Assembly: GCF_900167535.1 (NCBI RefSeq)
Contig: NZ_FUYE01000005.1
Coordinates: forward strand, 248,001 to 312,000
Origin: Prosthecobacter debontii
GTDB taxonomy: Bacteria; Verrucomicrobiota; Verrucomicrobiia; Verrucomicrobiales; Verrucomicrobiaceae
Length of the DNA: 64,000 nt
Direction: 5' to 3'
Shown here: piece after piece, positions 9,810-48,050 of the stretch
Layout: each line of letters starts with the position of its first letter
Position numbering within the stretch: position 1 is the stretch's first letter
Translations under genes and position numbers: made by a program
The notes under the pieces: generated by a model
The model's input: the letters and a program-made list of their open reading frames with translations, nothing else
Told to the model about the DNA's origin: nothing
The model's database searches: none

Positions 9810-9983
9810 GGTGATAAGTCATTAACGCACATCATTTCATCAGATTCGCGATTGGGCGTCCACACCTAGGTGATTGAAATGCACCCGACCCCAGACCGCC
9901 AAAGAGACTGCGACCTCCGAATCCATAGGCAAAAGAAGGTCCGTTTGCCCTGAGCCAATGGCCTGATATTCCTTTGTGACCGC

Positions 9984-13575: not shown

Positions 13576-13953
13576 TTAGCTAATTAAAACGACCGCGATC
13601 GATGCCAATAAGAGGGCCAAAAAACCAGCCGAGGAGAAGGTGCTTATCCTTGAAAATCGCCTCATACGAGTGAGCTCGTTGATTGGAAGGTCTTCTGCGA
13701 CAAGATCGATCAATGGTCGATGAATCCATTGATTGTAAAGATTGGTTCGGGCGACTGAGCCGCTCACGGTTTTGAATGGCATCTTAGGTTGCCAAAAAAA
13801 TCCAATGGGTTTACCAAGCTTAATCCAGCGTTCGGGGTGGTGCTGGGCAAGCTTGCGTAGTGCTGAATCAAAGGCGAGAAAGCTCAGAACAACGAAGGCA
13901 AAGCCCACCGCCCCACTGACAAAGACACACTGAACGAGCAGTTTAATGTACAT
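13576..13953 (-). CDS. Small membrane protein inside the lut operon
   Basis: The 125-residue protein has two hydrophobic segments, residues about 5-28 and 103-124, separated by a basic soluble stretch with several Trp and Pro. I do not recognise the family. It sits between lutA (4 bp from its stop) and lutB (17 bp), so it belongs to the same transcript. A role in fixing the LutABC complex to the membrane, or handing electrons to quinone, fits the position but nothing in the sequence proves it; no heme or metal motif is visible. Confidence 0.7.
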   Translation of the reverse strand: MYIKLLVQCVFVSGAVGFAFVVLSFLAFDSALRKLAQHHPERWIKLGKPIGFFWQPKMPFKTVSGSVARTNLYNQWIHRPLIDLVAEDLPINELTRMRRFSRISTFSSAGFLALLLASIAVVLIS

Positions 13954-25953: not shown

Positions 25954-26964
25954 GTGTCATCAGCCCGCTCGATTCTCGTCACCGGAGGCACCGGTTCTTT
26001 CGGTCAGAAATGCATCGCCACTTTGCTGGCCGATCCAGAAGTTAAGCGCATCGTCATTTATTCCCGTGACGAACTGAAGCAGTTCGAGATGAGCCAGAAG
26101 TTCACAGACCCACGTCTGCGTTTCTTTTTAGGTGATGTGCGTGACCGGGCTCGCCTCTGCCGTGCCTTGGAGGGCGTGGATACGGTGATTCATGCAGCGG
26201 CACTCAAGCAGGTGCCTGCAGCGGAATACAATCCGATGGAGTTCATCAAGACCAACGTCTTGGGTGCGGAAAATTTGATTGAGGCCTGTATGGATACGGG
26301 CGTTCGAAATGTCGTGGCTCTTTCGACCGATAAGGCGGCGGCTCCGATCAACCTCTACGGTGCCACCAAGCTCTGCTCGGATAAGCTTTTCATCGCAGCT
26401 AACAATGTTAAAGGCAGCCGGGATATCCGCTTCAGCGTGGTTCGCTATGGCAATGTGATGGGGTCTCGCGGTTCAGTCATCCCGTTCTTCTTGGATCGTC
26501 GTAAGACTGGAATCCTGCCAATCACGGATTTGGCGATGACCCGCTTTAACATTACTCTTCAGGAAGGCGTTGAATTGGTTCAGTATGCCTTGGAGCGCGC
26601 GCTCGGCGGCGAAATCTTCGTGCCTAAAATCCCCAGCTATCGCATCACGGATGTGGCTGAGGCGATCGGGCCAAACTGTGAAAAACCCGTCGTGGGTATC
26701 CGCCCTGGCGAGAAAATCCATGAGGAGATGGTGACTTCGACCGATGCTCTGCAAACGATCATGACGGATCGTCATTACATCATCGTGCCTAGTGGCAAGA
26801 TGGGCTTGGAGGCGACCTTGAAAAAATTCTCGGAGCATCACCAAGGCAGACCCGTGGCAGCAGACTTTGCCTATAATTCAGGCACAAATACGGAGTGGCT
26901 GACCGTGTCTGAAATCCGGACATTGATTCGTCAGCACGTCGATTCTTCCTTTGATTTGACCTGA
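25954..26964 (+). CDS. pseB: UDP-N-acetylglucosamine 4,6-dehydratase (inverting)
   Basis: The 336-residue extended SDR starts at GTG 25954. It has TGGTGSFGQK at 10-19 for NADP, STDKAAAP with Thr125, Asp126 and Lys127, and Tyr135/Lys139 (YGATK), the same set that performs C4 oxidation, C6 dehydration and C5 inversion in FlaA1/PseB. The product would be UDP-2-acetamido-2,6-dideoxy-L-arabino-hexos-4-ulose, the first intermediate of pseudaminic acid. It opens a 22-kb run of genes on the + strand, with pseC 13 bp downstream. Confidence 0.95.
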   Translation: MSSARSILVTGGTGSFGQKCIATLLADPEVKRIVIYSRDELKQFEMSQKFTDPRLRFFLGDVRDRARLCRALEGVDTVIHAAALKQVPAAEYNPMEFIKTNVLGAENLIEACMDTGVRNVVALSTDKAAAPINLYGATKLCSDKLFIAANNVKGSRDIRFSVVRYGNVMGSRGSVIPFFLDRRKTGILPITDLAMTRFNITLQEGVELVQYALERALGGEIFVPKIPSYRITDVAEAIGPNCEKPVVGIRPGEKIHEEMVTSTDALQTIMTDRHYIIVPSGKMGLEATLKKFSEHHQGRPVAADFAYNSGTNTEWLTVSEIRTLIRQHVDSSFDLT

Positions 26965-26977
26965 TCGAGTTGCGCTC

Positions 26978-28153
26978 ATGAGCACCCCGTTTCTTCCTTA
27001 TGGGCGTCAATCGCTGGACGAGGCAGACATCGCTGCCGTTGTTGAGGTTTTAAAGTCAGATTTTTTGACTCAAGGCCCGGCGATTTCCAGGTTTGAGCGT
27101 GCGGTAGCAGACTGGTGTGGTGCCAAGCACGGCATCGCTCTAGCGAATGGGACTGCAACCCTGCATTGTGCAGCGAAAGCCCTGGGACTTGGTCATGGTG
27201 ATGTGTTGTGGACCTCGCCGATCACCTTTGTGGCGTCGGCCAATGCTGGCCGTTACTGTGGTGCCAAGGTGGATTTTGTTGATGTGGATGCTGGCACTGC
27301 GTGCATGAGTGTGGAGCGGCTTGCAGAAAAATTGCGGCAGGCCGAGAAAAACGGCACGCTCCCTAAAGTCGTCGTGCCAGTGCATTTCGCCGGGCAATCT
27401 TGTGACATGCCTCAGATCCATGCGCTCGGGCAGAAATACGGCTTTCGTATCCTAGAAGACGCCGCCCATGCGTTAGGCGGTGATTACCTCGGTGAGCGCA
27501 TCGGTAATTGTCGTTGGTCAGATGCGGCGTCGCATAGCTTCCATCCGGTCAAAATCGTGACTAGCGGCGAAGGCGGGATGATCACGACCAATGATGATGA
27601 ATTGGCTTGGCGGATTGGCACGCTGCGAACGCATGGGATCACTCGCGATGCGGACCGAATGATCGGGGAAAGTGATGGCCCTTGGTATTATCAACAGCTT
27701 GAGTTGGGGTTTAACTATCGCATGACCGACATCCAGGCGGCTCTCGGGGCTAGTCAAATGGCTAAACTGGATGCCTTTGCCGTTCGTCGTCGGCAGATCG
27801 CTGATCTCTACGATCAGGCTCTGGCTGGCATGCCCCTGCGCCCCTTGGCTAGGGATACACAGGGAGTGAGCGGTTGGCACCTCTACATGATCCGGCTGAA
27901 TTTGGAGGAAATTCTCCCGCTGACCCGCAGGCAGGTGTTTGAGCGGTTACGGGGGCTGGGAATCGGAGTCAATGTTCATTACATACCTGTGCATCTTCAG
28001 CCGGACTACCTGAAGTTAGGGTTTAAGCAGGGTGATTTCCCTGAGGCGGAAAAATACTACGAAGAATGCATCACGCTTCCCATGTTCCCTGCCATGAACG
28101 ATGCTGACGTTGCTCGTGTCAGAGATGCACTGGCAAAAGCCCTGAATCTGTAA
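26978..28153 (+). CDS. pseC: UDP-4-amino-4,6-dideoxy-N-acetyl-altrosamine transaminase
   Basis: This 391-residue DegT/DnrJ/EryC1-family PLP enzyme transfers an amino group to C4 of the PseB product. The PLP lysine is Lys192 in FHPVKIVTSGEGG, with EDAAHALGG (160-168) holding the cofactor, and TQGPAISRFE is the usual PseC N-terminal block. Its place right after pseB confirms the assignment. The next expected gene, an N-acetyltransferase pseH, is not found; an unrecognised gene follows instead. Confidence 0.95.
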   Translation: MSTPFLPYGRQSLDEADIAAVVEVLKSDFLTQGPAISRFERAVADWCGAKHGIALANGTATLHCAAKALGLGHGDVLWTSPITFVASANAGRYCGAKVDFVDVDAGTACMSVERLAEKLRQAEKNGTLPKVVVPVHFAGQSCDMPQIHALGQKYGFRILEDAAHALGGDYLGERIGNCRWSDAASHSFHPVKIVTSGEGGMITTNDDELAWRIGTLRTHGITRDADRMIGESDGPWYYQQLELGFNYRMTDIQAALGASQMAKLDAFAVRRRQIADLYDQALAGMPLRPLARDTQGVSGWHLYMIRLNLEEILPLTRRQVFERLRGLGIGVNVHYIPVHLQPDYLKLGFKQGDFPEAEKYYEECITLPMFPAMNDADVARVRDALAKALNL

Positions 28154-28241
28154 TGTTAGGTGATTGCTTCACCTTGCGGAGGGGCAGTGCAGCACGGTTG
28201 ACAAGGTATCAGCCCTCCCAGAGTAGTGGCCACTGGATTTC

Positions 28242-28853
28242 ATGATGTCACGCTACCCGCTTGAGTTACCCTTTCGAGGCGAACGTTCTTACTTACATGG
28301 CACAGACCTCTATCAAAGTGTGGTTGGTGCTGTGGGAGACGATCTTCCTCAGGGGCCTTTTTCCATGATGTTCCATTCATTGCTGCGGCAGGCTCCGGAT
28401 CTCATTTGCTCGCGGGAGAGCTTGCGCCAATGGCGTGAGGATCCTGCTTTTCGTGGGGAACTTCGCTTCGGCAGTGCCGAGAACACGCTGCATGCTGTTT
28501 TACTGGAGAGCGACCGTCCCGTCACTGAGCGCAAGCTCTGCAATGAGAATGAGGTGGCCGCTGCTGCCGAGGTGGATGAGTCGGCTAAAACCGCGAAACT
28601 ACTTCATCCGAGAATCGGGGTGCCAATCGAGCAAGTGGTCTTTCTCAACAAGCATCTCCATCTGAAACTGTTGCCGCACCTGAGTCCGAAGTGGCTTTTT
28701 GCAAGGTTGGAGCTCGAGTCAAGCTTGCCCCCAGTCTGCGCTGACTCGCTCGAAGTGGTGCTCAAGCAAGTCTTGGGGAACCGCTTTACGCGCAGTGATA
28801 TTTTGCTGGACGGTAAACGCTACGGCACCATTTCCTTTTCCACCCCTCAATGA
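28242..28853 (+). CDS. Unrecognised protein in the PseH position of the nonulosonate operon
   Basis: The 203-residue soluble protein has no signal peptide, membrane helix or motif I know; in particular no GNAT-type acetyl-CoA loop (Q/RxxGxG/A). Conserved-looking blocks are FHSLLRQAPDLICSRESLR, HPRIGVPIEQVVFLNKHLH and ILLDGKRYGTISFS. Its stop overlaps the start of the KAS III gene (ATGA at 28850-28853), and pseC ends 88 bp upstream. By position between PseC and a KAS III/ACP pair it could be the N-acyltransferase that acylates the PseC product, taking the acyl chain from the ACP; this is inference from context alone. A dehydratase or a scaffold for the ACP enzymes is also possible. Confidence 0.6.
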   Translation: MMSRYPLELPFRGERSYLHGTDLYQSVVGAVGDDLPQGPFSMMFHSLLRQAPDLICSRESLRQWREDPAFRGELRFGSAENTLHAVLLESDRPVTERKLCNENEVAAAAEVDESAKTAKLLHPRIGVPIEQVVFLNKHLHLKLLPHLSPKWLFARLELESSLPPVCADSLEVVLKQVLGNRFTRSDILLDGKRYGTISFSTPQ

Positions 28854-29785
28854 GTTCTTCCGTTCGTCTCACTCAAATCGCCTCTTATATTCCTGAAGGA
28901 CGTGTGGACACGCGAGATCGGGGGAAGCGCTTTGATTATGGAGATGATTTTTTAGAGGGGAAGCTGGGCACGACATCCCTCGCCGCTAAGGCACCTGATG
29001 AACAGGCTTCCGACCTTTGTGTCAAAGCTGCACGAGCCCTCGAAGGTCAAGGTGGAATGATTGAGGGAGTCGGGGTTGTGATTGTATGCACTCAGACCCC
29101 AGATCATCACGGGATTCCTCATACGTCCGCTGTAGTCCATGCCAAGTTAGGGCTGCCGGATAACTGTGCTTGTTTCGATATCTCTCTCGGTTGCTCCGGC
29201 TATGTTTACGGACTGTCCGTGGCCATCTCCTTCATGCAGGCTCATGGGATCCAACGAGGCCTATTTTTCACGAGTGACCCTTATTCAGTGATCATTGATC
29301 CAGCGGATCAAGCCACCTCATTGCTGTTCGGAGATGCTGCGACGGTGAGCCTCTTGGAGGCGGGGCAGGGTGGCTGGGAAGTCCGAGATGTGCTTTTTGG
29401 AACTCAAGGTAAAGGAGGGGCGGCGATCAATAACCGCGAAGGCAAATTGGCTATGAATGGGCGTGATGTGTTTAACTTTGCCATGTTGACGGTGCCGAAA
29501 CAGATCAGCGCCCTCCTGGCGCGGCAAGAATTGACCTTGGATGCTGTGGATCGCGTGGTTTTGCACCAGGGCAGTCGATACATCGTCGATAAGCTGAGGG
29601 AGCGTCTGAAATTGCCTGAAGAGAAAGTCCCAGTGCATCTTTCAGGAATCGGAAATACGGTTTCTTCCGCTATTCCGTTAACGCTAGAAGCAGTATTGAA
29701 AAGCCACCAAGATCAGCGCATTTTGATTTCTGGCTTTGGTGTCGGCCTTTCTTACGCTACAGCCTTGTTGGAGCGTTGCTCCTGA
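28850..29785 (+). CDS. 3-oxoacyl-ACP synthase III-like enzyme of the glycan island
   Basis: The 311-residue thiolase-fold protein has the full FabH triad: Cys115 (LGCSGYVYG), His239 (VVLHQGSRYI) and Asn269 (GIGNTVSS). KAS III condenses an acyl-CoA starter with malonyl-ACP. Its position between an orphan gene (4-bp overlap) and a dedicated ACP gene (14 bp downstream), inside a nonulosonate operon, says it makes a short acyl group for a sugar rather than membrane lipid. Family relatives in secondary metabolism also act as acyltransferases, which is an alternative here. Confidence 0.88.
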   Translation: MSSSVRLTQIASYIPEGRVDTRDRGKRFDYGDDFLEGKLGTTSLAAKAPDEQASDLCVKAARALEGQGGMIEGVGVVIVCTQTPDHHGIPHTSAVVHAKLGLPDNCACFDISLGCSGYVYGLSVAISFMQAHGIQRGLFFTSDPYSVIIDPADQATSLLFGDAATVSLLEAGQGGWEVRDVLFGTQGKGGAAINNREGKLAMNGRDVFNFAMLTVPKQISALLARQELTLDAVDRVVLHQGSRYIVDKLRERLKLPEEKVPVHLSGIGNTVSSAIPLTLEAVLKSHQDQRILISGFGVGLSYATALLERCS

Positions 29786-29799
29786 CTTTTCTTTTTTCC

Positions 29800-30027
29800 A
29801 TGAGTGATACTCTGAATTCTGTTGTAGCCATCATCCGCGAAGCTGTTCCTGGTGCTGAAATCAATCCGGAAGCGGATGGAGATCGGTCGTTCAAAGAGCT
29901 TGGGATCGATTCTCTCGATAAAATGTCCTTGCTCCTTGGGATTCAGGAAAAATGGAACCTCGAATTTACGGAGCAGGAAATTGCCGAACTGAACAGTATC
30001 AACGACATTTGCCGCAAGGTAGGATGA
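29800..30027 (+). CDS. Dedicated acyl carrier protein
   Basis: I chose the ATG at 29800, giving 75 residues; the frame extends upstream into the KAS III gene. It is acidic, four-helix in pattern, with the phosphopantetheine site GIDSLDKMS at Ser38. The sequence departs from housekeeping AcpP (no DSLDTVEL), as in ACPs serving special pathways. It probably holds the acyl group made by the adjacent KAS III. Confidence 0.88.
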   Translation: MSDTLNSVVAIIREAVPGAEINPEADGDRSFKELGIDSLDKMSLLLGIQEKWNLEFTEQEIAELNSINDICRKVG

Positions 30028-30119
30028 CTCGGGGAGTTGGAGGGTTGAAGAGTCCAGGTTTTAGCTTTTTTGTGAGTATTGATGTTCAGCGGCCTACGGG
30101 CTCATTCTAGTTTGCCACC

Positions 30120-30962
30120 ATGTTTATCGCCGAAGTTTCAAGCAATCATCATCAGGATCTCGAACGTTGTCTTCAATTCGTAGATTGTGCCGCTCAAGTC
30201 GGATGCTCTTCAGCGAAATTCCAGCTTTTCAAGATTGATGAGCTTTTCACTGCCGATGTGTTAGCGACTCGGCCAGGGCACCGTGAGCGGCGGAAGTGGG
30301 AGTTGCCCGTCTCCTTTTTGAAACCTTTAGCGGATCGAAGCCACGAACTTGGGATCCAATTTTCGGCGACGCCTTTTTACCTCAAAGCTGTCGAAGAATT
30401 AGAACCCTACGTGGACTTCTACAAAGTAGCTTCCTACGAATTGCTGTGGTCGGATTTGCTGGCTGAATGTGCCCGTACGGGTAAGCCGGTCATCTTATCG
30501 ACAGGTATGGCGACCATGAATGAAATTGCGGTGGCTGTCGAGGTATTGCGTGGCAATGGCTGTAAGGATCTTACCTTGCTCCACTGCACTTCGAGTTATC
30601 CGACACCTCCTGCTGAATGCAATCTGGCAGCCATTCAGACCATGCGAGATACCTTTGGCTGCCAAGTCGGTTGGTCAGATCATACCGTCAATCCTGGGGT
30701 GATCTCGCGGGCGATTCATCGTTGGGGAGCGACGGCTGTCGAATTCCATCTGGATCTGGATGGCAAAGGGGCCGAGTATGCCGCCGGGCATTGCTGGCTG
30801 CCGGAGCAAATCAAAGCCGTGATTCGTGACACCAAGGACGCCTTCATTGCGGATGGAAGTGGCGTGAAGGAACCTGCTGCTATCGAACTGGTCGAGCGGG
30901 ATTGGCGTGCTGATCCGAGTGATGGGCTGCGCCCCACAGTGAAGATTCGAGGTCTCGTTTAA
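30120..30962 (+). CDS. PseI/NeuB-family nonulosonate synthase lacking the SAF domain
   Basis: The 280-residue protein is a NeuB-type TIM barrel: MFIAEVSSNHHQDLERC at the N-terminus, KFQLFK, FYKVASYELLW, ILSTGMATMNEI, LLHCTSSYPTPP, GWSDHT and EFHLDLDGKGAEYA are the metal- and PEP-site blocks. It would condense phosphoenolpyruvate with the 6-deoxy-altrose derivative to make the nine-carbon acid. NeuB and PseI are normally about 335-350 residues because of a C-terminal SAF (antifreeze-like) domain, which is absent here. It is followed at 16 bp by the activating enzyme. I avoid the symbol because its precise product is not certain. Confidence 0.88.
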   Translation: MFIAEVSSNHHQDLERCLQFVDCAAQVGCSSAKFQLFKIDELFTADVLATRPGHRERRKWELPVSFLKPLADRSHELGIQFSATPFYLKAVEELEPYVDFYKVASYELLWSDLLAECARTGKPVILSTGMATMNEIAVAVEVLRGNGCKDLTLLHCTSSYPTPPAECNLAAIQTMRDTFGCQVGWSDHTVNPGVISRAIHRWGATAVEFHLDLDGKGAEYAAGHCWLPEQIKAVIRDTKDAFIADGSGVKEPAAIELVERDWRADPSDGLRPTVKIRGLV

Positions 30963-30978
30963 CTGTTGTTACAGCTTT

Positions 30979-32775
30979 ATGTCTGACTCACGTCGTGCCG
31001 TTGCGATCATCCAGGCCCGCATGGGCTCGGCTCGTTTTCCACGTAAAGTGCTGGCTGATTTGCACGGCCAGCCCGTCATCTGGCATCTCATTCACAGAAT
31101 TGGCCAATGCCGTGAGATTGATGAAATCGTGGTGGCTACCTCAGACCAGTCAGGTGACGATGATTTGGCTGCTTATGTGAGCAATCTGGGCATTCGGGTC
31201 GTCAGAGGCTCAGAGACAAATGTGCTCGAGCGTCTCCTCAAAGCTGCCGAAGAATCTGAGGCGGATATCATCGTGCGCGTGACCGGAGATGCTCCATTGG
31301 TAGATCCTCAATCGCTGGACGATCAAGTGTCCGTCATGGTGGCTGCCCACGCGGACTTTTGTGTTTCTGAGCCTGAAGTGCCGAATATCAACGAAGGCTT
31401 CGAGGCGTTTACGATGGCTGCCTTAACGAAGCTTCAAATTGAAGCTGGGGACGATCCCATCGCCAAAGAGCACACCTGCACCTATTTCAAAAAGAACCCG
31501 GGTTTTGTGCAGGTCGTTTATGCGCAGGTGCCTGAAGAATTGCAATATCGCGGAGCGCGAATCTCTGTGGATACACCGCCAGATCTCGCTTTTCTTAATT
31601 TGCTGCATGAGCGACTCGATGTTGCACCAGGTGAATTGGATATCCGCGAGGTGGTGCAGCTTCTTCGCCGCGAACCTCAGCTCACTCAGATCAATGCAGG
31701 TGTGGTCCAAAAAACTGCCGGAGCTGTCTCAAGGACCGCGATTTTTCGTTGTGATGCCTCTGCTCAAATCGGTTTTGGCCATCTGATCCGTTGCCTAGCG
31801 CTTGCCGAAGTTTTGCGCGATGAGCAGAGCTTGGGGATTACCTTTGTGACACGGCCATCCGAAGCGGCTTCCCGATTGATCTCGCAGCAACGTCATCGGC
31901 ATTGGATTTTAGATGAAAATCTGGATGCCTGGGATCAACTCGAAGCCAAGGTCAGCCAGGATAAGGCCGACGTTTTGGTGCTCGATGTACGTGATGGGGT
32001 GAGTCCACCACGGCTTGAATCGCTACAAAGAAAAACGGGTGCTCTCCTGGTCGATATTGATGATCCCGAAGATAAACGCCTAGTTTGCGATCTTTTGTTT
32101 TATCCACCCGTACCTCAACTCGATCACATGGATTGGGCCGGACTCAAGGGGACAAAACATGCCGGGTGGGATTGGCTGCTTTTGAGAAAGCAATTTCATG
32201 AGGCGCATCAACGGCGGGTTGCGGTGCCTTTGGTCTCTCAGGACAGACCGGTCATCCTCGTGACGATGGGCGGTAGCGATCCGGCGGGCCTGACGCTGAA
32301 AGCTAGTGCGGCGCTGGCGAACGTTCCGGGCTGCTTTCATGTCCTGTTTGTTTTAGGAGGGGCCTTCTGTCACGACGAAGCGTTTGAGGAGCAGTTGAGC
32401 AAAGTTTCATATTCTTATGAAATCCTACGGTCTGTGGATGCGATGGCGGACCTCATGCTGAGGGTGGATCTGGCCGTGGCTTGCTTCTCCGTGACGGCCT
32501 ATGAATTGGCCACTGTAGGCGTTCCTTCCATTTTTCTTTCACTTACAGCAGACCATTACGAGTCCTCATTGCCTTTTGTGCTCGATGGCTTGGCTCTGAG
32601 TTTGGGGGTGCATGATCAGGTGAAAGGCGAAACTCTCACGGCTGCCATTTCCGAGATTCTCGTTGACACTCCTCGCCGCCTTCTCATGTCTCAAGCCGCG
32701 CTTACGAAGACGGACGGACTCGGAGCTCGACGCATCGCCCAAACAATTACCAACCACCTGACCAAGCGCATATGA
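30979..32775 (+). CDS. Fusion of a SpsF/PseF-type cytidylyltransferase and a PseG-type UDP-sugar hydrolase
   Basis: The protein has 598 residues. Residues 1-240 are a nucleotidyltransferase (IIQARMGSARFPRKV at 10-24, TGDAPLVDP at 102-110, then the ISVDTPPDL block at 195-203), which should load the nonulosonic acid onto CMP. Residues 252-598 are PseG-like, a GT-B fold: RCDASAQIGFGHLIRCLALA (257-276) contains the catalytic-base region with His268, followed by DVLVLDV, ILVTMGGSDPAG and AVACFSVTAYELATVGVPS. PseG removes UDP from the 2,4-diamido sugar. The fusion joins steps before and after the synthase in one chain. Its stop overlaps the next gene (ATGA). Confidence 0.9.
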   Translation: MSDSRRAVAIIQARMGSARFPRKVLADLHGQPVIWHLIHRIGQCREIDEIVVATSDQSGDDDLAAYVSNLGIRVVRGSETNVLERLLKAAEESEADIIVRVTGDAPLVDPQSLDDQVSVMVAAHADFCVSEPEVPNINEGFEAFTMAALTKLQIEAGDDPIAKEHTCTYFKKNPGFVQVVYAQVPEELQYRGARISVDTPPDLAFLNLLHERLDVAPGELDIREVVQLLRREPQLTQINAGVVQKTAGAVSRTAIFRCDASAQIGFGHLIRCLALAEVLRDEQSLGITFVTRPSEAASRLISQQRHRHWILDENLDAWDQLEAKVSQDKADVLVLDVRDGVSPPRLESLQRKTGALLVDIDDPEDKRLVCDLLFYPPVPQLDHMDWAGLKGTKHAGWDWLLLRKQFHEAHQRRVAVPLVSQDRPVILVTMGGSDPAGLTLKASAALANVPGCFHVLFVLGGAFCHDEAFEEQLSKVSYSYEILRSVDAMADLMLRVDLAVACFSVTAYELATVGVPSIFLSLTADHYESSLPFVLDGLALSLGVHDQVKGETLTAAISEILVDTPRRLLMSQAALTKTDGLGARRIAQTITNHLTKRI

Positions 32776-34203: not shown

Positions 34204-36012
34204 ATGAACTCTGATCTCCACCAGCTGTCCCCTGATTATCTGAAAAAACTGTCCGTCGATGAGCTGACCGCCTTGGCGGCTGATATTCGTCAATATTTGA
34301 TTGGTGCCATCTCCACGACTGGAGGGCATATCGGTGCGAATCTAGGTGTCGTCGAGCTGACTCTGGCGGTTCATGCGGTATTCGACTCTCCTCAAGACGC
34401 GATCATTTTTGACACCGGACATCAAGGCTACATTCATAAGTTGATCACCGGTCGGCAGGAACACTTCTCGACCTTAAACACATGGGGCGGGATGAGCCGT
34501 TTTGTATCGCGTCATGAAAGCGAGCATGACACGATTGATGCATCTCATGCGGGCACATCCATCAGTATCGCCAGCGGGATGGCGTGGTCTTTTAAGGTGT
34601 CAGCTTCCCCTCAAAAGGTGGTGGCCATCATTGGAGATGGTTCCATGGTTGAGGGCATGGCTTTCGAGGGATTGAACTTCGTTGCTGGCTCTGAATTACC
34701 TCTGGTGATCGTTTTGAATGACAACGAAATGGCCATCGCTCCTAACATTGGTGGAATTCGTAATCTGACAACAGGTCAGGATTGGCAGGAGAAAAGCAGG
34801 GCTTTTTTTGAAGGGTTGGGTTTGTCCTATCTGGCTGTAGAAGATGGACATGACTTGGCATCCCTGGTTTCTGCGATGCGTGAAGCGCATCAAAGCTCGC
34901 ACCCAGTGCTGGTGCATGTGAAAACTGAAAAGGGACGTGGCTTGTCGTGTGCGGATGGTCATCCCTATAAGATGCATTTTTCGATGCCGTTTGATCCTGT
35001 GACTGGTAAAGGTGCCAATCCGACTGTGGCAGGAAAGACAATGGCCTTGGTAGCGGCGCAGGAGTTGGAGGAGATTTTACAAGAGGATCCTGATGTGGTA
35101 TTGATTACCCCGGCGACACCTTATGCATCCTATTTAGATCGACTCATCAGCCGGTTCCCTGACCGAGTCATCGATGTGGGAATGGCTGAGCAACAAGCGG
35201 TGGGAATGGCAGTAGGAATGGCATTGCGCGGTAAAAAACCCGTGGTGTGCATCCAGACCACCTTCATGCAGCGCGCCTACGATCAGTTGCTCCATGACGT
35301 CTGTTACATGGATGTGCCTGTCACCATTCTGGGCGTGCGATCAGGCTTCTCGGGCTATGACTCACCCACCCACCATGGCATTTTTGATATCCCTTATCTG
35401 AGGTCATTCCCAAACATGCAGATCATTTATCCGACGGATAGCCATGACATGCGGGCTTTGCTGCGTAGAAGAATGGCATCCCCGAACGGGCCGATGACTA
35501 TTCTGCATCCCTACGAGCCGATTGAGGAACCAGAATTGCGTTCGGAGTTGGAGGAGTGCGAAGATGTCTATCTGGTCGAACACGGTAAAGACGGGCTTAT
35601 TTTAACGCTTCCCAACCGATCTAAAGCGGCGATTGAGCTTCAGGCTGCCTTGAAAGTGGAAACGGGGCTTTCATATGGCGTGGCGGTGATCCGTCAAATC
35701 AAGCCCTTCCCAGTGCAGCAAGTGCTCGATCTCTGCCAAACGTTAGAGCGCGTCATCACTTTAGAGGAGAGTGCTCTAGCGGGTGGGTTTGGCTCATTGA
35801 TCGCCGAAACCTTTGCGGATTTTGGGGTGCAAGTGCCGTTGATGCGATTTGGGGTCAATGATCAGTTTGTCGCACCGGGGACCAAAGAGGAGTGCTCTCG
35901 TGATACGGGGCTGGATACCCAAAGCATTGTGCAAACGGTGGTGAAAAAATGGGCTGCTCCATCCTTACGCGCTGCGTTGGCTCCGACTCAGGCCTTGGCT
36001 AAAGCTTGCTAG
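34204..36012 (+). CDS. DXS-like thiamine diphosphate enzyme of the glycan island
   Basis: The 602-residue protein follows 1-deoxy-D-xylulose-5-phosphate synthase from end to end: GGHIGANLGVVELT at 40-53, FDTGHQGYIHK at 69-79, the ThDP site GDGSMVEGMAFEGLN (144-158) with NDNEM (172-176), and VIDVGMAEQQAVG with the catalytic glutamate. Two substrate-site motifs differ: DRAG reads VRSG, and YPRG, whose Arg holds the glyceraldehyde-3-phosphate phosphate, reads HPYE. So the acceptor may not be glyceraldehyde-3-phosphate. It lies inside a sugar locus, near a split transketolase. A plain housekeeping DXS is the alternative but the lost Arg speaks against it. Confidence 0.85.
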   Translation: MNSDLHQLSPDYLKKLSVDELTALAADIRQYLIGAISTTGGHIGANLGVVELTLAVHAVFDSPQDAIIFDTGHQGYIHKLITGRQEHFSTLNTWGGMSRFVSRHESEHDTIDASHAGTSISIASGMAWSFKVSASPQKVVAIIGDGSMVEGMAFEGLNFVAGSELPLVIVLNDNEMAIAPNIGGIRNLTTGQDWQEKSRAFFEGLGLSYLAVEDGHDLASLVSAMREAHQSSHPVLVHVKTEKGRGLSCADGHPYKMHFSMPFDPVTGKGANPTVAGKTMALVAAQELEEILQEDPDVVLITPATPYASYLDRLISRFPDRVIDVGMAEQQAVGMAVGMALRGKKPVVCIQTTFMQRAYDQLLHDVCYMDVPVTILGVRSGFSGYDSPTHHGIFDIPYLRSFPNMQIIYPTDSHDMRALLRRRMASPNGPMTILHPYEPIEEPELRSELEECEDVYLVEHGKDGLILTLPNRSKAAIELQAALKVETGLSYGVAVIRQIKPFPVQQVLDLCQTLERVITLEESALAGGFGSLIAETFADFGVQVPLMRFGVNDQFVAPGTKEECSRDTGLDTQSIVQTVVKKWAAPSLRAALAPTQALAKAC

Positions 36013-36048
36013 AGGGCTCAGAGATCAAATCGGTCGTTTGACTTCGGA

Positions 36049-36083
36049 TTTTGGGGGTGACGAATAGCGCGTCATCCCCAAAA
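36049..36083. terminator. Long 14-bp hairpin after the DXS-like gene
   Basis: TTTTGGGGGTGACG (36049-36062) pairs completely with CGTCATCCCCAAAA (36070-36083), one G-U pair, 7-nt loop, 37 bp past the stop codon. The T-run precedes and the A-run follows the stem on both strands, so it lacks the usual 3' U-tail; it may still stop transcription or protect the mRNA end. The rest of the gap to 36263 shows no gene. Confidence 0.55.
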
Positions 36084-36262
36084 ACTCATTGCTAATCAGC
36101 CCAGTAAATTCACACTGGGATTGATTTTCGATCCATGATGGCGCCCTCTTTAAACTTCCAGGACCTTTCAGATGGGGGCACGGTTGTTTCAGTACTCTCA
36201 TTACAGCAGAGGGCGGGCGGCATGAGATCGTGTGAGCAACGATACAGGTCGGACGTTTAAAC

Positions 36263-37498
36263 ATGCCCTTTCAAATTTTATTCGACGGTGCCTACGGTAT
36301 TCGCAGTTTTGGAGATGATGCTCCTCTCATCGTCCTAGCGGAGACCTTGCGGAAAAAGCTCGGTGCTGTCGAATGCGTGGTGGTAAGCCGACATGCTGCT
36401 GAGGCTCAGTATGAGAGCTATGGCATTCGGGCTATCGAAGGAGTCGAATACGCGACCAAGGCCGAAAGCTTGGGGCGCTGGTTTCGGGGATTCAATCCCG
36501 ATGATGAACGCGCAGACCTATGCCGTCTGTATGATGAAATCGCCGCTAGCGACCTCGTGGTTTTAGGGGCAGGGAATTTCTTGATCGATATCACGATTGA
36601 TGTCCTCAAAGGGCCTGTTCCTCGATTTCTTCTCATGTCGCTCATGGCACGTATGACAGGGACTCCTGTGCTGTGGTATGGGATTTCGGTGGGACCGCTC
36701 AAAACGCGTCTAGGAAGAGACATGAGCCGCTTAGCTGCATCACTCGCCAGCCGAATCACGGTGAGGGACGAGAAGAGTTTGCGGGAGTTGAAGTCGCTTG
36801 AAATTCATTCACCTGCGATACATCTCCCTGATCCTGTGCTGGGGCTAGAGTTGGCTCCACGTGGAACGGCAGCCAGCAATCCCGTGTGGCAGGCTGCTCA
36901 TTCAGAAGGAAAGTCGGTAATAGCGGTGTCAGTCAGGGCCGTGCCTACCAGTAGTGGGCTTACGATGGACGAATATCTAACAATCCTGGCGTCTGCCTTG
37001 GATAAATTGGTCGTCCTCCATGATGCGAATGTGCTTTTGATTCCGCAATGTATCTACGCTCACGCAACCCCCGATCAAGATGACCGGTTTACGGCTAGGC
37101 AGTTGATGTCCAGAATGAAGGAAGTACAGCGTTGCTTTTCGGTGGAGAATGAACTGGATGTTTATCAGTGCGCGGCCTTGTACGAGGGGGCGAAGCTTGC
37201 CCTCTGCACGAGGCTGCACGGTTGTGTATTTGCGGTGATGAACGGCATTCCCACCTTGGCTCTTTGCTACCACCCGAAAGTGTCAGAGTTCATGAGTTGG
37301 ATTGGGTTCCCTGAGTTTGCCTTTGCAATGCAGGATTTATCTGTGGAGACGCTTTTGGAGGGGGCTGTCGCAGTGTTGGACCCTCAAAAGCAGTTTGTCG
37401 CTCAATCGACGAGAGCCATCCAGGCTGGGCGGCAGAACTTGGAAGAATACTCGAATATTGCGATTGAAGCCATGCGGGAAAAAGTCCATTTCTCGTGA
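36263..37498 (+). CDS. Polysaccharide pyruvyl transferase family protein
   Basis: The 411-residue protein has the WcaK/PS_pyruv_trans pattern: LVVLGAGNFLIDI, GTPVLWYGISVGPLKT, RITVRDEKSLRELKSL in the N-terminal half and the acceptor-site block LALCTRLHGCVFAVMNG IPTLALCYHPKVSEFM in the C-terminal half. Enzymes of the family add a pyruvate ketal from PEP to a glycan sugar, but many members have diverged. It should decorate the island's polysaccharide. The next frame begins within its stop codon. Confidence 0.87.
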   Translation: MPFQILFDGAYGIRSFGDDAPLIVLAETLRKKLGAVECVVVSRHAAEAQYESYGIRAIEGVEYATKAESLGRWFRGFNPDDERADLCRLYDEIAASDLVVLGAGNFLIDITIDVLKGPVPRFLLMSLMARMTGTPVLWYGISVGPLKTRLGRDMSRLAASLASRITVRDEKSLRELKSLEIHSPAIHLPDPVLGLELAPRGTAASNPVWQAAHSEGKSVIAVSVRAVPTSSGLTMDEYLTILASALDKLVVLHDANVLLIPQCIYAHATPDQDDRFTARQLMSRMKEVQRCFSVENELDVYQCAALYEGAKLALCTRLHGCVFAVMNGIPTLALCYHPKVSEFMSWIGFPEFAFAMQDLSVETLLEGAVAVLDPQKQFVAQSTRAIQAGRQNLEEYSNIAIEAMREKVHFS

Positions 37499-38190
37499 AT
37501 GGCTCGGCCCTAGGCAGTCAGTTTCTTTCGATCCAATCTACGGAATCCCTTTCTTATATGATAAATAAAATCCGCCCACACCGCATTTTTGACCTCGTTC
37601 CAGCAGAGGAAAAAAGCGCCGTGATCTGTCTGCCTCAAAAGAAGTCTCTTACCTCCATGCTTGAGCGCGGTATTCTGCTTTCCTTGGCGAAGGCTGTGAA
37701 GCCGCAGCGAATCTTTGAATTTGGCACCTACCTTGGGGAGACCACTTTCATGCTGGCGGAGAATACTGAAGCGGAGGTCTTCACGCTAGATTTGGGTGAG
37801 TCATATGATTCCCCCCAGCTTGATAACTTTGAGAAAAACAACCTTGCTCAGCATCGCTCGAATCAGAAGCAATGGGAAATCCGTGAATGCGGGAAGCGTG
37901 TCACTCAGCTTTTGGGAGATAGCACCCTCTTTGATTTTTCCAGCTACCATGGCAGCATTCAGTTCGTTTTGATCGATGGTGGGCACCAGACCGAAGTTGT
38001 GATCAAAGATACGGAAAATGCTCTGGCGCTCTTGGATCGCTCGAAGCCGGGCTGCGTGATTTGGCACGATTATAACAATCCGCATTACGAGATCACCCAG
38101 TATCTAGACGGCCTCTCGGAGAGCCTGAAGTTGTTTTACATCGAGGAAACGAAATACGTGGTCTATTTCAACGAGCACTTTCCATTTTGA
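37495..38190 (+). CDS. Class I SAM-dependent methyltransferase (Methyltransf_24)
   Basis: A GTG at 37495 overlaps the previous stop (GTGA) and gives 231 residues; an ATG at 37558 (MINKIRPHRIFDLVPAEEK) gives 210 and may be the true start. The Rossmann block FEFGTYLGETTFMLAEN is motif I, VFTLDLGE motif II, and FVLIDGGHQTEVVIKDTENAL the acidic post-motif with His, as in the cephalosporin-hydroxylase/methyltransferase 24 family. Such enzymes methylate sugars in surface-glycan loci. The acceptor is unknown. Confidence 0.8.
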   Translation: MNGSALGSQFLSIQSTESLSYMINKIRPHRIFDLVPAEEKSAVICLPQKKSLTSMLERGILLSLAKAVKPQRIFEFGTYLGETTFMLAENTEAEVFTLDLGESYDSPQLDNFEKNNLAQHRSNQKQWEIRECGKRVTQLLGDSTLFDFSSYHGSIQFVLIDGGHQTEVVIKDTENALALLDRSKPGCVIWHDYNNPHYEITQYLDGLSESLKLFYIEETKYVVYFNEHFPF

Positions 38191-38236
38191 TTTCCCTGAC
38201 CACAGCCGTTCAACGCTTCACGATTCGCATTCCCGT

Positions 38237-39049
38237 ATGAGTCAGAAATCCCTTCAGGACTGGGCTAAAACTATTCGTATCGAGTCATTGAAAATGATTC
38301 ACCACAGCCCGGCGGGCCATCCGGGGGGCAGCTTATCCGTCGCGGATATCATTGCTGTTCTCTACTTTTCAGAGTTGCGTTTGAAACCTGAAGAACCTCG
38401 CTGGTTGGATCGTGACCGTTGCATTTTGTCTAAAGGGCATGCCTGTGCGGCTGTTTATGCTGCCCTTGGCCTGTTAGGTTATTTCGATCAAAAGGAGTTT
38501 CTGAGATTTCGCCGCATTGATGGTTTGCTAGAAGGGCATCCGTCCGTTGCGATTCCAGGCATTGATGCACCTTCAGGCTCACTCGGAATGGGGCTGTCAC
38601 AAGGCCTGGGCATGGCTCTGGGCGCTCGTTTTGGTAAACGTGACTTCCGCACCTATGTGGTGCTGGGGGAAGGCGATCTCCAAGAAGGTAGTACTTGGGA
38701 AGCCATCATGGCCGCTGGACATCACAAGGTGAGTTCACTCTGCGCGATTTTAGATCTCAATGGAGTGCAGCAGGATGGCCGGGTGGAAGACACCATGAAT
38801 ATTGCCCCGATTGCTGACAAGCTGGAGGCTTTTCACTGGGCGGTGCAAGAAGTCGATGGGCATGACTGTGACCAGATCGCTGAAGCTCTAAAGAGAGCCC
38901 GGTCAGAGACGGGTAAACCCACACTGATTGTCGCCCGCACGATCAAAGGCAAAGGTGTTTCCTTCATGGAACATCAGGTCAGATGGCACGGCAGTACTCC
39001 CCTATCTGCGGAGCAGTTGGAGGCTTCCTTAGCTGAGCTCAATTGCTGA
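38237..39049 (+). CDS. Transketolase N-terminal subunit
   Basis: The 270-residue protein is the ThDP-binding half of a split transketolase: HHSPAGHPGGSLSVADI at the N-terminus, LSKGHACAAVYAALG, SGSLGMGLSQGLGMALG and the ThDP motif GEGDLQEGSTWEAIM...DLNG. The partner C-terminal subunit follows 48 bp downstream. Split transketolases in glycan loci are thought to move two-carbon ketol units in making unusual sugars; the donor and acceptor here are unknown. Confidence 0.92.
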   Translation: MSQKSLQDWAKTIRIESLKMIHHSPAGHPGGSLSVADIIAVLYFSELRLKPEEPRWLDRDRCILSKGHACAAVYAALGLLGYFDQKEFLRFRRIDGLLEGHPSVAIPGIDAPSGSLGMGLSQGLGMALGARFGKRDFRTYVVLGEGDLQEGSTWEAIMAAGHHKVSSLCAILDLNGVQQDGRVEDTMNIAPIADKLEAFHWAVQEVDGHDCDQIAEALKRARSETGKPTLIVARTIKGKGVSFMEHQVRWHGSTPLSAEQLEASLAELNC

Positions 39050-39097
39050 GCATATCTCTTACCGTATCAAACGATCGCCAGTCAGTCGCAAAATATC

Positions 39098-40066: not shown

Positions 40067-40082
40067 CATTCATTCATTCATT
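40067..40082 (+). repeat. (CATT)4 tetranucleotide repeat before the SDR gene
   Basis: Four perfect CATT units occupy most of the 32-bp gap between the transketolase stop and the SDR start at 40099, within a pyrimidine-rich leader that lacks a Shine-Dalgarno sequence. Confidence 0.7.
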
Positions 40083-40098
40083 CTCTCTTTCATCGTTC

Positions 40099-40848
40099 AT
40101 GAGACTCCAGGATAAAGTCGCCGTTATCACCGGTGCTGGCCGAGGTATCGGCAAAGAAATCGCAAAAACTTTTGCGGCTGAAGGTGCAAAGATCGTTGTC
40201 AATTACGTCAACAACAGAGCGGCTGCGGAAGCGACTCTCGCTGAACTGACCGAAGCAGGTGCGGATGCGGTTTTGATCCAGGCCAATGTGGCCGTGCGTG
40301 AAGAGGTGAAACGTCTCTTCAAGGAAGCCCATGAGCGTTACGGAAGAATCGATATCTTGGTCAACAATGCCGGTATCAACAAGCGTGGCTGGTTCGAAGA
40401 AGCTACGGATGAAGACTGGGACATGATCATGGGCGTCAATCTGAAAGGGCCCTTCATTTGCAGCCAGGAGGTGTTTCCCTACATGAAGGAACAGAAGGGG
40501 GGGCGCATCATCAATATCTCCTCTGTAGCTGGGCAGTATCACGGGCCAAAGACCGTTCACTATGCGGTCTCCAAAGCGGGATTGAATAGCCTCACCAAGG
40601 TGGTAGCCCGCTACGGAGCTGAGCATAACATCTTGGTGAATGCCGTGGCTCCGGGGATCATGTGGACAGAACAGACGGCAGATGAACTGGCGAGCCCCGG
40701 TGGTCAGGTGATTGTCAATATGACCTTGGTGAAGCGGCCTGGCCAGTTGAGTGATGTATCCAGCACCTGTGTCCTCTTGGCTTCGGATGAGCAGAGCTAC
40801 ATCACGGGACAAGTGATCAGCGTCAGCGGAGGAGCTTATCTGGCCTGA
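40099..40848 (+). CDS. FabG-like short-chain dehydrogenase
   Basis: The 249-residue classical SDR has TGAGRGIGKEI (11-21), NNAGIN (89-94), catalytic Ser141/142, Tyr155 and Lys159 (YAVSK) and the closing VISVSGGAYLA. It looks like a 3-oxoacyl-ACP reductase. In this island it could reduce an acetoacetyl-ACP made by the KAS III, or act on the keto sugar from the transketolase pair directly upstream. The sequence does not decide between these. Confidence 0.9.
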   Translation: MRLQDKVAVITGAGRGIGKEIAKTFAAEGAKIVVNYVNNRAAAEATLAELTEAGADAVLIQANVAVREEVKRLFKEAHERYGRIDILVNNAGINKRGWFEEATDEDWDMIMGVNLKGPFICSQEVFPYMKEQKGGRIINISSVAGQYHGPKTVHYAVSKAGLNSLTKVVARYGAEHNILVNAVAPGIMWTEQTADELASPGGQVIVNMTLVKRPGQLSDVSSTCVLLASDEQSYITGQVISVSGGAYLA

Positions 40849-40851
40849 CCT

Positions 40852-45953: not shown

Positions 45954-47240
45954 ATGACATCCACAGAATCCATGCACGGCCTCATGAGTCGGCTGTTTCC
46001 CATTTGCAGGAGCCTTACGGGAGAGGGCGTGCGCACGACATTAAAGATCTTACAGGAGCATATGCCGGGCCTTACGATTCACGAAGTCCCCAGTGGGACG
46101 ACGTGTTTGGATTGGCAGGTGCCGGACGAATGGAATATCCGCTCCGCGCGCTTGACTAATCCGGATGGGGAAGTCATCGCCGATTTTGATACGCACAACC
46201 TGCATGTGGTGGGTTACTCAGAGCCTGTCGATGTGAAACTTGAACTGGAGGAACTCCAAAAGCATCTCTACTCCAGTGCCAAAATGCCGGAGGCAATTCC
46301 TTATGTGACAAGCTACTACAAGCGTACGTGGGGATTCTGCATTTCCGAAAAGCAACGACAAACACTCAAACCCGGGCGTTATCATGCCCACATTGATTCG
46401 TCGCTGACTCCTGGCAGCCTAACCTATGGTGAGTTGATCTTACCGGGGGAATCGAAAGATGAAATCTTCTTGTCTACCTATGTTTGTCATCCGTCGATGG
46501 CTAACAATGAGTTGTCAGGCCCTGTCGTTGCCACTTGGCTGGCCAAGCACCTCCAAGCTCTCCCTAAACGGCGGCACACATACCGCATCGTTTTCATCCC
46601 GGAAACGATCGGTAGTATCGTTTACTTGGCCCGCCACATGGACCATCTCAAACAGCATGTGAAGGCGGGGTTTGTGCTGTCATGCGTGGGGGATGATCGT
46701 GCCTACTCCTACCTGCCCTCCCGTTGCGGGGGGACACTGGCAGACAAAGCGGCGTTGCATGTGTTAGACCATCTGCATCCGGGGTATCAAAAGTTCAGTT
46801 ATCTTCAGCGTGGTAGTGATGAACGCAATTATTGTTGGCCGGGTATCGATCTACCCATGTGCTCGATTATGCGCAGTAAATATGCGACCTTCCCTGAATA
46901 CCATACTTCTGCGGATGACTTGACCTTTGTCACTGAATCCGGCTTGCAAGGAGCATATCAAGCGCTGCTAATGACCATCGACTGCTTGGAGAAAAACAAG
47001 ACCTACATAACAACGGTCTTAGGCGAACCTCAGATGGGTAAACGTGATCTCTATCCGACGATTGCGATGAATGGAAACGTCAGCAAGGGGCGAGCGAGAT
47101 TGCTGGTGGATATCTTGGCGTATTGTGATGGTACGAATGACCTTTTTGATCTCGCTCATATTCTGAACCGACCAGCGTGGGAGCTCTTTGAACTCATGGA
47201 TGTGTTGTTGCATCACGGACTGATTCGAGAAAAGAACTGA
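45954..47240 (+). CDS. DUF4910 aminopeptidase-like protein
   Basis: The 428-residue protein matches the DUF2172/DUF4910 architecture: an N-terminal aminopeptidase-like domain with ICRSLTGEGVRTTL, metal-type residues in YHAHIDSS, STYVCHPSMANNELSG and FIPETIGS, then GSDERNYCWPGIDLP, and a C-terminal winged-helix-like segment (NDLFDLAHILNRPAWELFELMDVLLHHGLI). The fold is that of M28 zinc peptidases. In O-antigen loci these proteins often accompany amide-linked sugar substituents, so it may form or cleave such an amide. Its AAC(3)-type neighbour lies 3 bp downstream. Confidence 0.85.
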   Translation: MTSTESMHGLMSRLFPICRSLTGEGVRTTLKILQEHMPGLTIHEVPSGTTCLDWQVPDEWNIRSARLTNPDGEVIADFDTHNLHVVGYSEPVDVKLELEELQKHLYSSAKMPEAIPYVTSYYKRTWGFCISEKQRQTLKPGRYHAHIDSSLTPGSLTYGELILPGESKDEIFLSTYVCHPSMANNELSGPVVATWLAKHLQALPKRRHTYRIVFIPETIGSIVYLARHMDHLKQHVKAGFVLSCVGDDRAYSYLPSRCGGTLADKAALHVLDHLHPGYQKFSYLQRGSDERNYCWPGIDLPMCSIMRSKYATFPEYHTSADDLTFVTESGLQGAYQALLMTIDCLEKNKTYITTVLGEPQMGKRDLYPTIAMNGNVSKGRARLLVDILAYCDGTNDLFDLAHILNRPAWELFELMDVLLHHGLIREKN

Positions 47241-47243: not shown

Positions 47244-48050
47244 ATGACCTCACGCACCCATTATACGACGGAGGATATCAAAACAGCCCTATGCGAATTA
47301 GGGGTCGCTTCGGGCGATGATGTTTATGTTTCTGGTAACTTTGGATCGCTTGGGTTTCATGAATCAAAATCGAAAACCGGTACACTCGAAGCCCATCACG
47401 AGGCCATAAGGGCTGTCATCGGCCCCGAAGGTACGCTCGTGGTTCCGACGCATTCATTTGACCTCTGCAATACGGAGATCGTGTTTGATTCCAAGGTGAC
47501 GCCTAGCCAACGAGGACCGTTCACAGAATTCATACGGCAGATGCCGGGAGCTGTGCGTCAGTTTCATCCATTTGGTTCGGTGACGGCTTTGGGTGCATCT
47601 GCCGGCTTGATTTGTGAAAAAACAACCCGGCATGCCTATGGGCCGAATACGCCTTATGAGCGCCTCCTTCACCGAGATGCGTGGAGCCTCAGCGTGGGGA
47701 TGCCGCCTCAGACCACTTGCAGTCTGGTTCATCACTTGGAGATGACGATGGCCGTGCCCTATCGCTACACGAAGGAGTTTCTTCATCCGGTCAAGCGCAG
47801 CGAAGAAGTGGTGATCGAGCCTTTCTACCTCTTTGTTACTTACCAAGGCATCGAGCTTGAGCGCGACCGTAATGCGAAGTTCTTTGCTCATCCTCTGATG
47901 GTGCAGCATGTCCGTCAGGTGCGTATCGGTATGAATCAGGTGTGGGCTTACAAGATGCGCGTCTTCGAGCAAGTGGTGCGGGAGTGCATGACCGAAGATA
48001 TTTACGCTTGGTTGCGCCACCCGCCTGAGATACGGCCGTTTCAGAAATGA
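47244..48050 (+). CDS. AAC(3)-family N-acetyltransferase of the glycan island
   Basis: The 268-residue protein has the Antibiotic_NAT fold signatures TLVVPTHSFDLCNTE, FHPFGSVTALGASA and CSLVHHLEMTMAVPYRYTKEF. Although the family is named for aminoglycoside 3-N-acetyltransferases, members in polysaccharide loci acylate amino sugars with acyl-CoA. It could supply the N-acyl step on a glycan sugar and is the second candidate, besides the orphan at 28242, for the missing PseH activity. Its stop faces the next gene with a 6-bp gap. Confidence 0.87.
   Translation: MTSRTHYTTEDIKTALCELGVASGDDVYVSGNFGSLGFHESKSKTGTLEAHHEAIRAVIGPEGTLVVPTHSFDLCNTEIVFDSKVTPSQRGPFTEFIRQMPGAVRQFHPFGSVTALGASAGLICEKTTRHAYGPNTPYERLLHRDAWSLSVGMPPQTTCSLVHHLEMTMAVPYRYTKEFLHPVKRSEEVVIEPFYLFVTYQGIELERDRNAKFFAHPLMVQHVRQVRIGMNQVWAYKMRVFEQVVRECMTEDIYAWLRHPPEIRPFQK

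Follow-up and report, generated by a model that had tools for sequence, protein, structure and literature searches.

A recurrent acyl carrier protein gene triad in a pseudaminic acid locus of Prosthecobacter debontii and its possible role in non-acetyl N-acylation of surface sugars

N-acyl groups are a main source of variety in nonulosonates and surface amino sugars, and how groups other than acetyl are supplied for them is largely open. This question is raised by a pseudaminic acid (Pse) locus of Prosthecobacter debontii (assembly GCF_900167535.1), which lies in a stretch of 64,000 nucleotides (the window; contig NZ_FUYE01000005.1, positions 248,001 to 312,000 of the forward strand) and in which Pse genes adjoin an orphan gene, a 3-ketoacyl-ACP synthase III (KAS III) gene and a gene for a dedicated acyl carrier protein (ACP), termed the triad in the following. 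A preliminary description of this DNA had proposed that the triad stands in for PseH, the GCN5-related N-acetyltransferase (GNAT) that acetylates the 4-amino group, and that together with a FabG-type short-chain dehydrogenase/reductase (SDR) it provides a 3-hydroxybutyryl or other short acyl group for the 7-amino position of Pse. The comparative analysis reported here leans towards a different division of labor, in which the triad forms a portable acyl-ACP module that would feed a separate sugar N-acyltransferase, giving Pse with a non-acetyl N-acyl group.

The absence of PseH was found to extend to the whole genome (G000; 6.29 Mb, completeness 99.6%), in which no protein passes the PseH cut-off of 93.1 bits and the best of seven sub-threshold matches reaches 23 bits. 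The close linkage of the triad was also borne out: orphan and KAS III genes overlap by 4 bases, the ATG of the ACP gene at 29800 lies 14 bases past the KAS III gene, and the KAS III and ACP domains and the catalytic residues are intact. The longest ACP frame opens at TTG 29776, with ATG 29800 as the most likely start. The order orphan-KAS III-ACP is fixed in all 12 loci that were found via the orphan, i.e., the window and L018 (genome G013), L019 (G008), L020 (G025), L022 (G092), L024 (G188, of the same genus as the window's genome), L025 (G161), L026 (G532), L027 (G533), L028 (G534), L039 (G595) and L040 (G840), and this conservation is more than chance. The orphan of G840 is recognisable only in part, with one piece in L040 (model positions 80-198) and another on a second contig, L059 (positions 10-46, 19 bits).

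The hosts comprise members of the Verrucomicrobiota, among them a metagenome-assembled genome (MAG) of the Verrucomicrobiales (G161), a 'Deltaproteobacteria' MAG (G532), Metabacillus bambusae (G533), a Gammaproteobacteria MAG (G534) and a genome of the gammaproteobacterial class (G595). The orphan family is rare. It was detected in 8 of 189 genomes of the window's order, a number that includes the window's own genome and a match in G060 that was later dropped as weak (49 residues, E 8.9e-4), in 3 of 387 genomes of a phylum sample (own genome counted), in 3 of 321 genomes of the class of G534 (G534 counted) and in 1 of 80 genomes of the family of G533, which is G533 itself. Plasmid copies of the orphan were not found, and among the matches listed in the open-licence PMC literature (titles and starts of abstracts) there was no publication on the triad. 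The neighbors of the triad are amino-sugar or nonulosonate genes, such as those for DegT-type aminotransferases, PseG, PseI and FdtA. Pseudaminic acid genes are not a constant companion of the triad, which lies away from PseG- or PseI-type genes in L020, L022, L025, L026, L027 and L028; the last of these loci has genes for dTDP-sugars, one of them an RmlC-FdtA fusion. Metabacillus bambusae has the triad together with an LpxD-like gene amid flagellar genes encoding FlgK and flagellin (L027:10001-12753), a setting that suggests an acylated sugar on flagella.

For the window orphan no Pfam or NCBIfam match was obtained, none of six family members matched a curated hot-dog family at E<=10 within HMMER's filters, and the sequence profile of the family gave only chance-level matches to the PDB. 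An AlphaFold2 model calculated on six sequences (pLDDT, the predicted local distance difference test, 88.7; pTM, the predicted template modelling score, 0.84) has an order of elements that suggests two halves, each composed of one long helix and a sheet. Foldseek and VIA-align matched this model to TesB thioesterases, dehydratases of polyketide synthases (PKS) and acyl-ACP thioesterases, with VIA Z scores of 11.3 (TesB) and 11.2 (a PKS dehydratase) over approximately 172 of 203 residues. As judged from the model, the orphan most likely has the double hot-dog fold of proteins that act on acyl thioesters, and by the family comparisons it appears to be a new hot-dog family. Identity to the window member falls to 25% in the alignment, and the residues that are invariant in its six rows include D22, H45, E89, E102, E130, K137, W151, E157 and R181. 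The usual dehydratase catalytic histidine, which we take to precede the first long helix (the motif was placed without superposition), would presumably fall at H19, a position held by glutamine in three of the six rows. A match to TIGR00715 (precorrin-6A reductase, 9.4e-5) in one of the six members was rejected as spurious, since the other members do not show it and the fold differs. A relationship to AfsA-type butenolide synthases was also considered and gave no match in a comparison limited to Pfam, with no structure included.

The KAS III of the triad possesses both ACP_syn_III domains and scores 175 bits against the fabH model, below the cut-off of 292. A FabH over this cut-off is present besides the triad enzyme in 11 of 11 triad genomes tested; the counts of FabH, PseB and PseH refer to these 11 genomes, the set of which excludes G092 (L022). 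In a tree of 28 KAS III proteins, in which the housekeeping row of the window's genome is only 19% filled and L022 is left out, 11 of 11 triad members fall on one side of a branch with support 100/100, apart from the housekeeping FabH proteins. All 11 keep the Cys-His-Asn residues and carry an HQGS signature, compared with HQAN in the 10 readable housekeeping rows. The attachment site of the ACP reads DSL in 11 of the 12 loci and QSL in L022. L019 has two ACP genes (13578-13898 and 9845-10081), one by an LpxD-like gene and one after the KAS III gene, and DUF4910 and AAC(3)-like (aminoglycoside 3-N-acetyltransferase-like) genes beyond. The features of the window are compiled in Table 1.

Table 1. 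Genes of the triad and of the surrounding glycan cluster in the window (positions within the 64,000 nucleotides).
Feature	Coordinates	Strand	Evidence
pseB, UDP-GlcNAc 4,6-dehydratase (inverting)	25954..26964	+	TIGR03589 508 bits, passes NCBIfam cut-off 407.75
pseC, UDP-4-amino-4,6-dideoxy-AltNAc aminotransferase	26978..28153	+	TIGR03588 532 bits, passes NCBIfam cut-off 423.5
Orphan, predicted double hot-dog protein, triad gene 1	28242..28853	+	AlphaFold2 model; no sequence family
KAS III of the triad	28850..29785	+	PF08541/PF08545; C115, H239, N269
Dedicated ACP, 75 aa from ATG 29800	29800..30027	+	PF00550; GIDSLD site
Short PseI/NeuB-like synthase, 280 aa, without C-terminal SAF part	30120..30962	+	PF03102 203 bits
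Cytidylyltransferase with PseG-like domain, 598 aa	30979..32775	+	PF02348 at 8-187; TIGR03590 at 254-523, below cut-off
FabG-type SDR, probably outside the triad	40099..40848	+	no homologue in the examined stretches of other triad loci
DUF4910/DUF2172 aminopeptidase-like protein, proposed sugar N-deacylase	45954..47240	+	PF16254 353 bits, PF09940, PF16221
AAC(3)-like N-acyltransferase, proposed acyl-ACP user	47244..48050	+	PF02522 100 bits

Each of the 11 other loci has an acyltransferase-type gene of its own no more than two genes away from the triad, and therefore the orphan is probably not the substitute for PseH that it had been taken for; its hot-dog fold, its occurrence in clusters without pse genes and a locus that the module shares with a true PseH (G840) speak against that role as well. 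The partners are AAC(3)-like in L019, L020, L025 and L040 (homologues of the AAC(3)-like protein of the window) and LpxD-like in L018, L019, L022, L024, L027 and L028; of the latter, three were compared with LpxD models, of which the L027 protein passes one of two (PRK00892, 216.6 vs 207) and those of L018 and L022 pass none. L039 has a NeuD-like partner (141 bits of 160.8), and in L026, the weakest case, the partner is a hexapeptide transferase.

The window's genome holds no LpxD-like protein at E<=1e-8. As judged by homology, the better candidate for the corresponding partner is the AAC(3)-like gene at 47244, which lies beyond the region covered by the preliminary description and which, like the DUF4910 gene of the same cluster, had been left out of it. 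It is the single AAC(3)-like match in the genome and follows directly after the DUF4910 gene. Its PF02522 score compares with a cut-off of 25 bits, and its score against the AAC_3 resistance model (79 bits) is below the cut-off of 270. Matches in the PDB are AAC(3) enzymes and FrbF, and a VHHxE segment is common to five AAC(3)-like proteins, the matching stretch of the solved AAC(3) 7lap aligning with the window protein. The DUF4910 protein matches 3k9t, a 'putative peptidase', with E 2e-100; the segments CHPS, PETIG, GSDER and EYHTS are common to five DUF4910 proteins and nearly identical in 3k9t (YHTS there). DUF4910 and AAC(3)-like genes are paired in the window, L019, L020 and L040. In L020 the pair follows directly after the ACP (orphan-KASIII-ACP-DUF4910-AAC(3)), and L040 has the order orphan piece-KASIII-ACP-AAC(3)-DUF4910-pseC-pseF-methyltransferase-like-pseG-pseH-pseI. 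No DUF4910 gene was found in the examined stretches of L018, L022, L024, L025, L026, L027, L028 and L039.

The clearest connection of the triad with the Pse pathway is seen in G595, in which PseB (520.6 bits), PseC (517.7), PseF (262.3), PseG (199.6) and PseI (433.7) are all over their cut-offs, the best PseH match is 46 bits vs 93.1, and the genes follow each other in the order PseF-PseG-orphan-KASIII-ACP-NeuD-like-PseI. G013 and G188 have an LpxD-like gene directly after the ACP, with PseB over and PseH below the cut-off; in G013 a cytidylyltransferase and then PseI (477.7 vs 340.25) come after this gene. In L018, L019, L024, L039 and L040 a PseG that passes or nearly reaches its cut-off is found beside the triad. 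The earlier idea of an ACP-borne acyl group that is destined for amino sugars is in line with this comparative context, above all with G595, G013 and G188.

A comparable arrangement exists in Campylobacter jejuni in the locus Cj1293-Cj1299, in which Cj1295 is presumably a DUF4910 protein and which presumably also encodes a KAS III. By knock-out and complementation, Hitchen et al. (2010, PMC3068675) tied Cj1295, the gene next downstream after the Pse genes Cj1293 and Cj1294, to 7-acetamido-5-(2,3-di-O-methylglyceroyl)amino-Pse, and they proposed cleavage of the C5 acetamido group by the aminopeptidase-like domain of its product. Mass arithmetic agrees, as m/z 317 minus 42 for acetyl plus 116 for dimethylglyceroyl results in 391. 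In the available excerpts of the literature, Cj1295 is the sole gene assigned to the di-O-methylglyceroyl group. Cj1296/Cj1297 are annotated as aminoglycoside N3'-acetyltransferase (PMC3025981), and Cj1299 is listed as AcpP2, an ACP belonging to the O-linked glycosylation locus (PMC3749442). Like the window, this locus combines Pse genes and an ACP with an aminopeptidase-like and an AAC(3)-annotated gene. In contrast to the window, C. jejuni has the whole Pse pathway. Its Pse carries a non-acetyl N-acyl group, as is predicted for that of the window's strain.

In the proposed mechanism, the KAS III would join an acyl-CoA to a malonyl unit carried by the dedicated ACP, as suggested by its intact Cys-His-Asn residues. 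The product may be reduced by a cellular reductase encoded outside the module, and the hot-dog protein would act on the ACP-bound chain, most likely at the beta position if its fold is a guide. A separate N-acyltransferase, in the window the AAC(3)-like protein, would then move the short acyl group from the ACP to an amino group of a nucleotide-activated sugar or a nonulosonate, from which the DUF4910 protein may first strip an acetyl group, as proposed for Cj1295. The product would be pseudaminic acid bearing a non-acetyl N-acyl group. The evidence tips modestly in favor of such an acyl-ACP module that feeds a separate N-acyltransferase. The identity of the acyl group and its attachment at N-7 had been put forward in the preliminary description as 3-hydroxybutyryl on the 7-amino group; neither can be read from the sequence, and in the C. 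jejuni counterpart the group is on C5. The wider view that the three-gene cassette plugs into amino-sugar pathways over several phyla via interchangeable N-acyltransferases (LpxD-, AAC(3)- and NeuD-like), replacing the PseH step in several Pse pathways, is plausible, although we hold it with some reserve and short of calling it probable. A recurrent acyl-ACP cassette with several kinds of acyltransferases would give a testable general answer to the question of non-acetyl supply, and it would add a new family of hot-dog enzymes and a genomic marker that predicts non-acetyl N-acyl sugars in distant phyla.

Several points weigh against the acyl-ACP module. AAC(3) enzymes classically use acetyl-CoA, and the use of acyl-ACP by the AAC(3)-like and the other partners is deduced from gene context. 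The DUF4910/AAC(3) pair of the window is 15.9 kb away from the ACP and does not adjoin it, and the partner in L026 is closer to O-acetyltransferases (WbbJ/WcaF-type matches). As the orphan belongs to no recognisable family, its catalytic step is a guess, and thioesterase activity would counter the scheme. The FabG-type SDR has no homologue near other triads, so that no reductase is assigned. The likeness to C. jejuni is drawn at the level of domains and annotations; furthermore, Cj1297 was given as a putative efflux component (PMC3749442), and the available excerpts of a 2026 publication about the genes that modify C. jejuni flagella do not contain the terms ACP, fabH, Cj1297, Cj1298 or Cj1303 (PMC13130089).

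For the position of the acyl group in the window, two accounts of similar weight can be set against each other. If UDP-4-amino-4,6-dideoxy-AltNAc receives its acyl group from the ACP through the AAC(3)-like protein, this protein would directly take the place of PseH and 7-N-acyl Pse would result. In this case the lack of PseH is accounted for: PseB is over its cut-off in 9 of the 11 triad genomes tested and PseH in 2, namely G840, where it shares the locus of the triad, and G533, where it lies elsewhere, so that 1 of the 9 PseB-positive genomes (G840) has PseH, although these counts cover triad genomes alone, with no base rate from PseB genomes that lack the triad, and PseH is a divergent family. 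The expectation that the block goes along with a lack of pseH is to this extent supported. G595 with the triad and the NeuD-like gene between PseG and PseI, G013 with its LpxD-like gene, and Acinetobacter baumannii, in which 7-N-3-hydroxybutanoyl Pse (Pse5Ac7Hb) was assigned to psaG/H replacing psaD/E (PMC6586298), fit a replacement as well. However, these best genomic cases use NeuD- or LpxD-like enzymes and not AAC(3), and G840 carries the module, the AAC(3)/DUF4910 pair and a true PseH (143 bits) in one locus, so that the module is not a simple PseH replacement; direct replacement by the AAC(3)-like protein is for these reasons a tentative idea. The other account assumes that Pse is N-acetylated at C7 by an unlinked GNAT, that the DUF4910 protein strips the C5 acetyl group and that the AAC(3)-like protein adds the acyl group of the triad there, the lack of PseH being unrelated. 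It draws on the Cj1295 data and the C5 cleavage hypothesis of their authors (PMC3068675), on the recurrent DUF4910/AAC(3)-like pair, which in G840 occurs alongside PseH, and on G161, in which a 511-aa PseG (L057:3426-4961, 189 bits) with a GNAT domain in its C-terminal stretch that matches PseH at 40 bits adjoins pseB, pseC and DUF4910, the triad and AAC(3) being on another contig. Candidates for the unlinked GNAT in the window's genome are two generic Acetyltransf_3 proteins encoded beyond the window, 0.8 to 2.7 kb from its end, but one has 23 bits to PseH and the other no match at E<=1, both are weakly similar to RimJ/SpeG-type enzymes, and they are far from the cluster. DUF4910 is also missing from the examined stretches of eight triad loci. 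An exchange at C5 is likewise a tentative idea, about as likely as direct replacement.

Two further alternatives concern the triad as such. It might serve another sugar or lipid, with its placement amid pse genes being incidental, and the six loci without PseG- or PseI-type genes in their stretches would be compatible with this. The tight spacing and the overlaps within the window series from pseBC to the PseI-like gene, and PseG beside the triad in five loci, render this improbable. KAS III relatives that act as acyltransferases are known, such as CerJ and ChlB6, and the triad clade is marked by an HQGS signature, so that the KAS III itself might transfer the acyl group to the sugar; yet the Cys-His-Asn residues that serve decarboxylative condensation are retained in all 11 enzymes, and each of the 11 other loci has a different acyltransferase-type gene close to the triad, which makes a transfer by the KAS III very unlikely.

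The acyl-ACP module can further be compared with known routes to non-acetyl groups. In the available text on A. baumannii psaABCGHF, non-acetyl Pse is assigned to a swap of acylation genes, but neither a KAS III nor an ACP dedicated to it is mentioned. Polar flagellum islands of Aeromonas group II carry an ACP, a 3-oxoacyl-ACP reductase and an AMP-dependent synthetase between pseBC and pseFGHI (PMC7874193). They differ from the window in that pseH is present and the acyl-handling enzymes are others, and the triad is not named in the excerpts available (PMC7874193). In lipid A synthesis LpxD is an acyl-ACP-dependent N-acyltransferase of a UDP-sugar, and the LpxD-like genes by several triads suggest a like chemistry, although in the window's genome no LpxD-like protein was found at E<=1e-8.

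The FabG-type SDR that had been proposed as a partner is real, but 10 kb separate it from the triad, and its neighbors are transketolase and ATP-grasp genes. A homologue was found neither at E<=1e-4 in 10 further triad loci (stretches of 5 to 21 kb) and one pseB contig nor at E<=1e-2 in L022, other kinds of reductases not having been searched for at the triad loci. More likely, this SDR serves another part of the glycan. The genes at 34204-42084 (DXS-like, two-gene transketolase, FabG-type SDR, LAL_C2 ATP-grasp and methyltransferases) resemble at the domain level the flagellin-modification set sfmABCDE of Shewanella oneidensis, which encodes a PseI-like protein, a thiamine pyrophosphate (TPP) enzyme, a 3-oxoacyl-ACP-reductase-like SDR, a methyltransferase and an ATP-grasp protein (PMC3765264). 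In the available excerpts, neither a KAS III nor an ACP gene is mentioned for this five-gene cluster (PMC3765264).

All these genes are part of a run on the + strand from 25954 to 48050, which starts with pseB, pseC, the triad, the short NeuB-like synthase and the cytidylyltransferase/PseG-like fusion, continues with a methyltransferase, a DXS-like gene, a pyruvyltransferase, a methyltransferase, two transketolase halves, the SDR and an ATP-grasp gene, and ends with GH57-like, glycosyltransferase-like, DUF4910 and AAC(3)-like genes. The assignments of pseB and pseC in the preliminary description were correct, as were the coordinates, and both proteins pass curated cut-offs. The candidates for the PseI-like, PseF-like and PseG functions belong to the right domain families but score below the cut-offs, and the PseF-like and PseG functions are likely rather than proven. 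The PseI-like protein reaches 179 bits against the PseI model (cut-off 340.25) and 179 bits against the NeuB model (cut-off 400), the PseI model aligning with residues 2-253 up to model position 265 of 327, and it is the sole NeuB-family match in the genome. A sialic acid synthetase of 290 aa has been solved (6ncs), comparable in length to this synthase. In the fusion protein the PseG domain has 133 bits (cut-off 153.55), and the PseF model gives 29 bits (cut-off 205.7). The GH57-like protein (42100-44088) is encoded within this glycan biosynthesis cluster. A homologue of the methyltransferase at 32772 with 50% identity is found in G532 (L060:16718-17632), in a separate cluster with pseB, pseC and NeuB-like genes.

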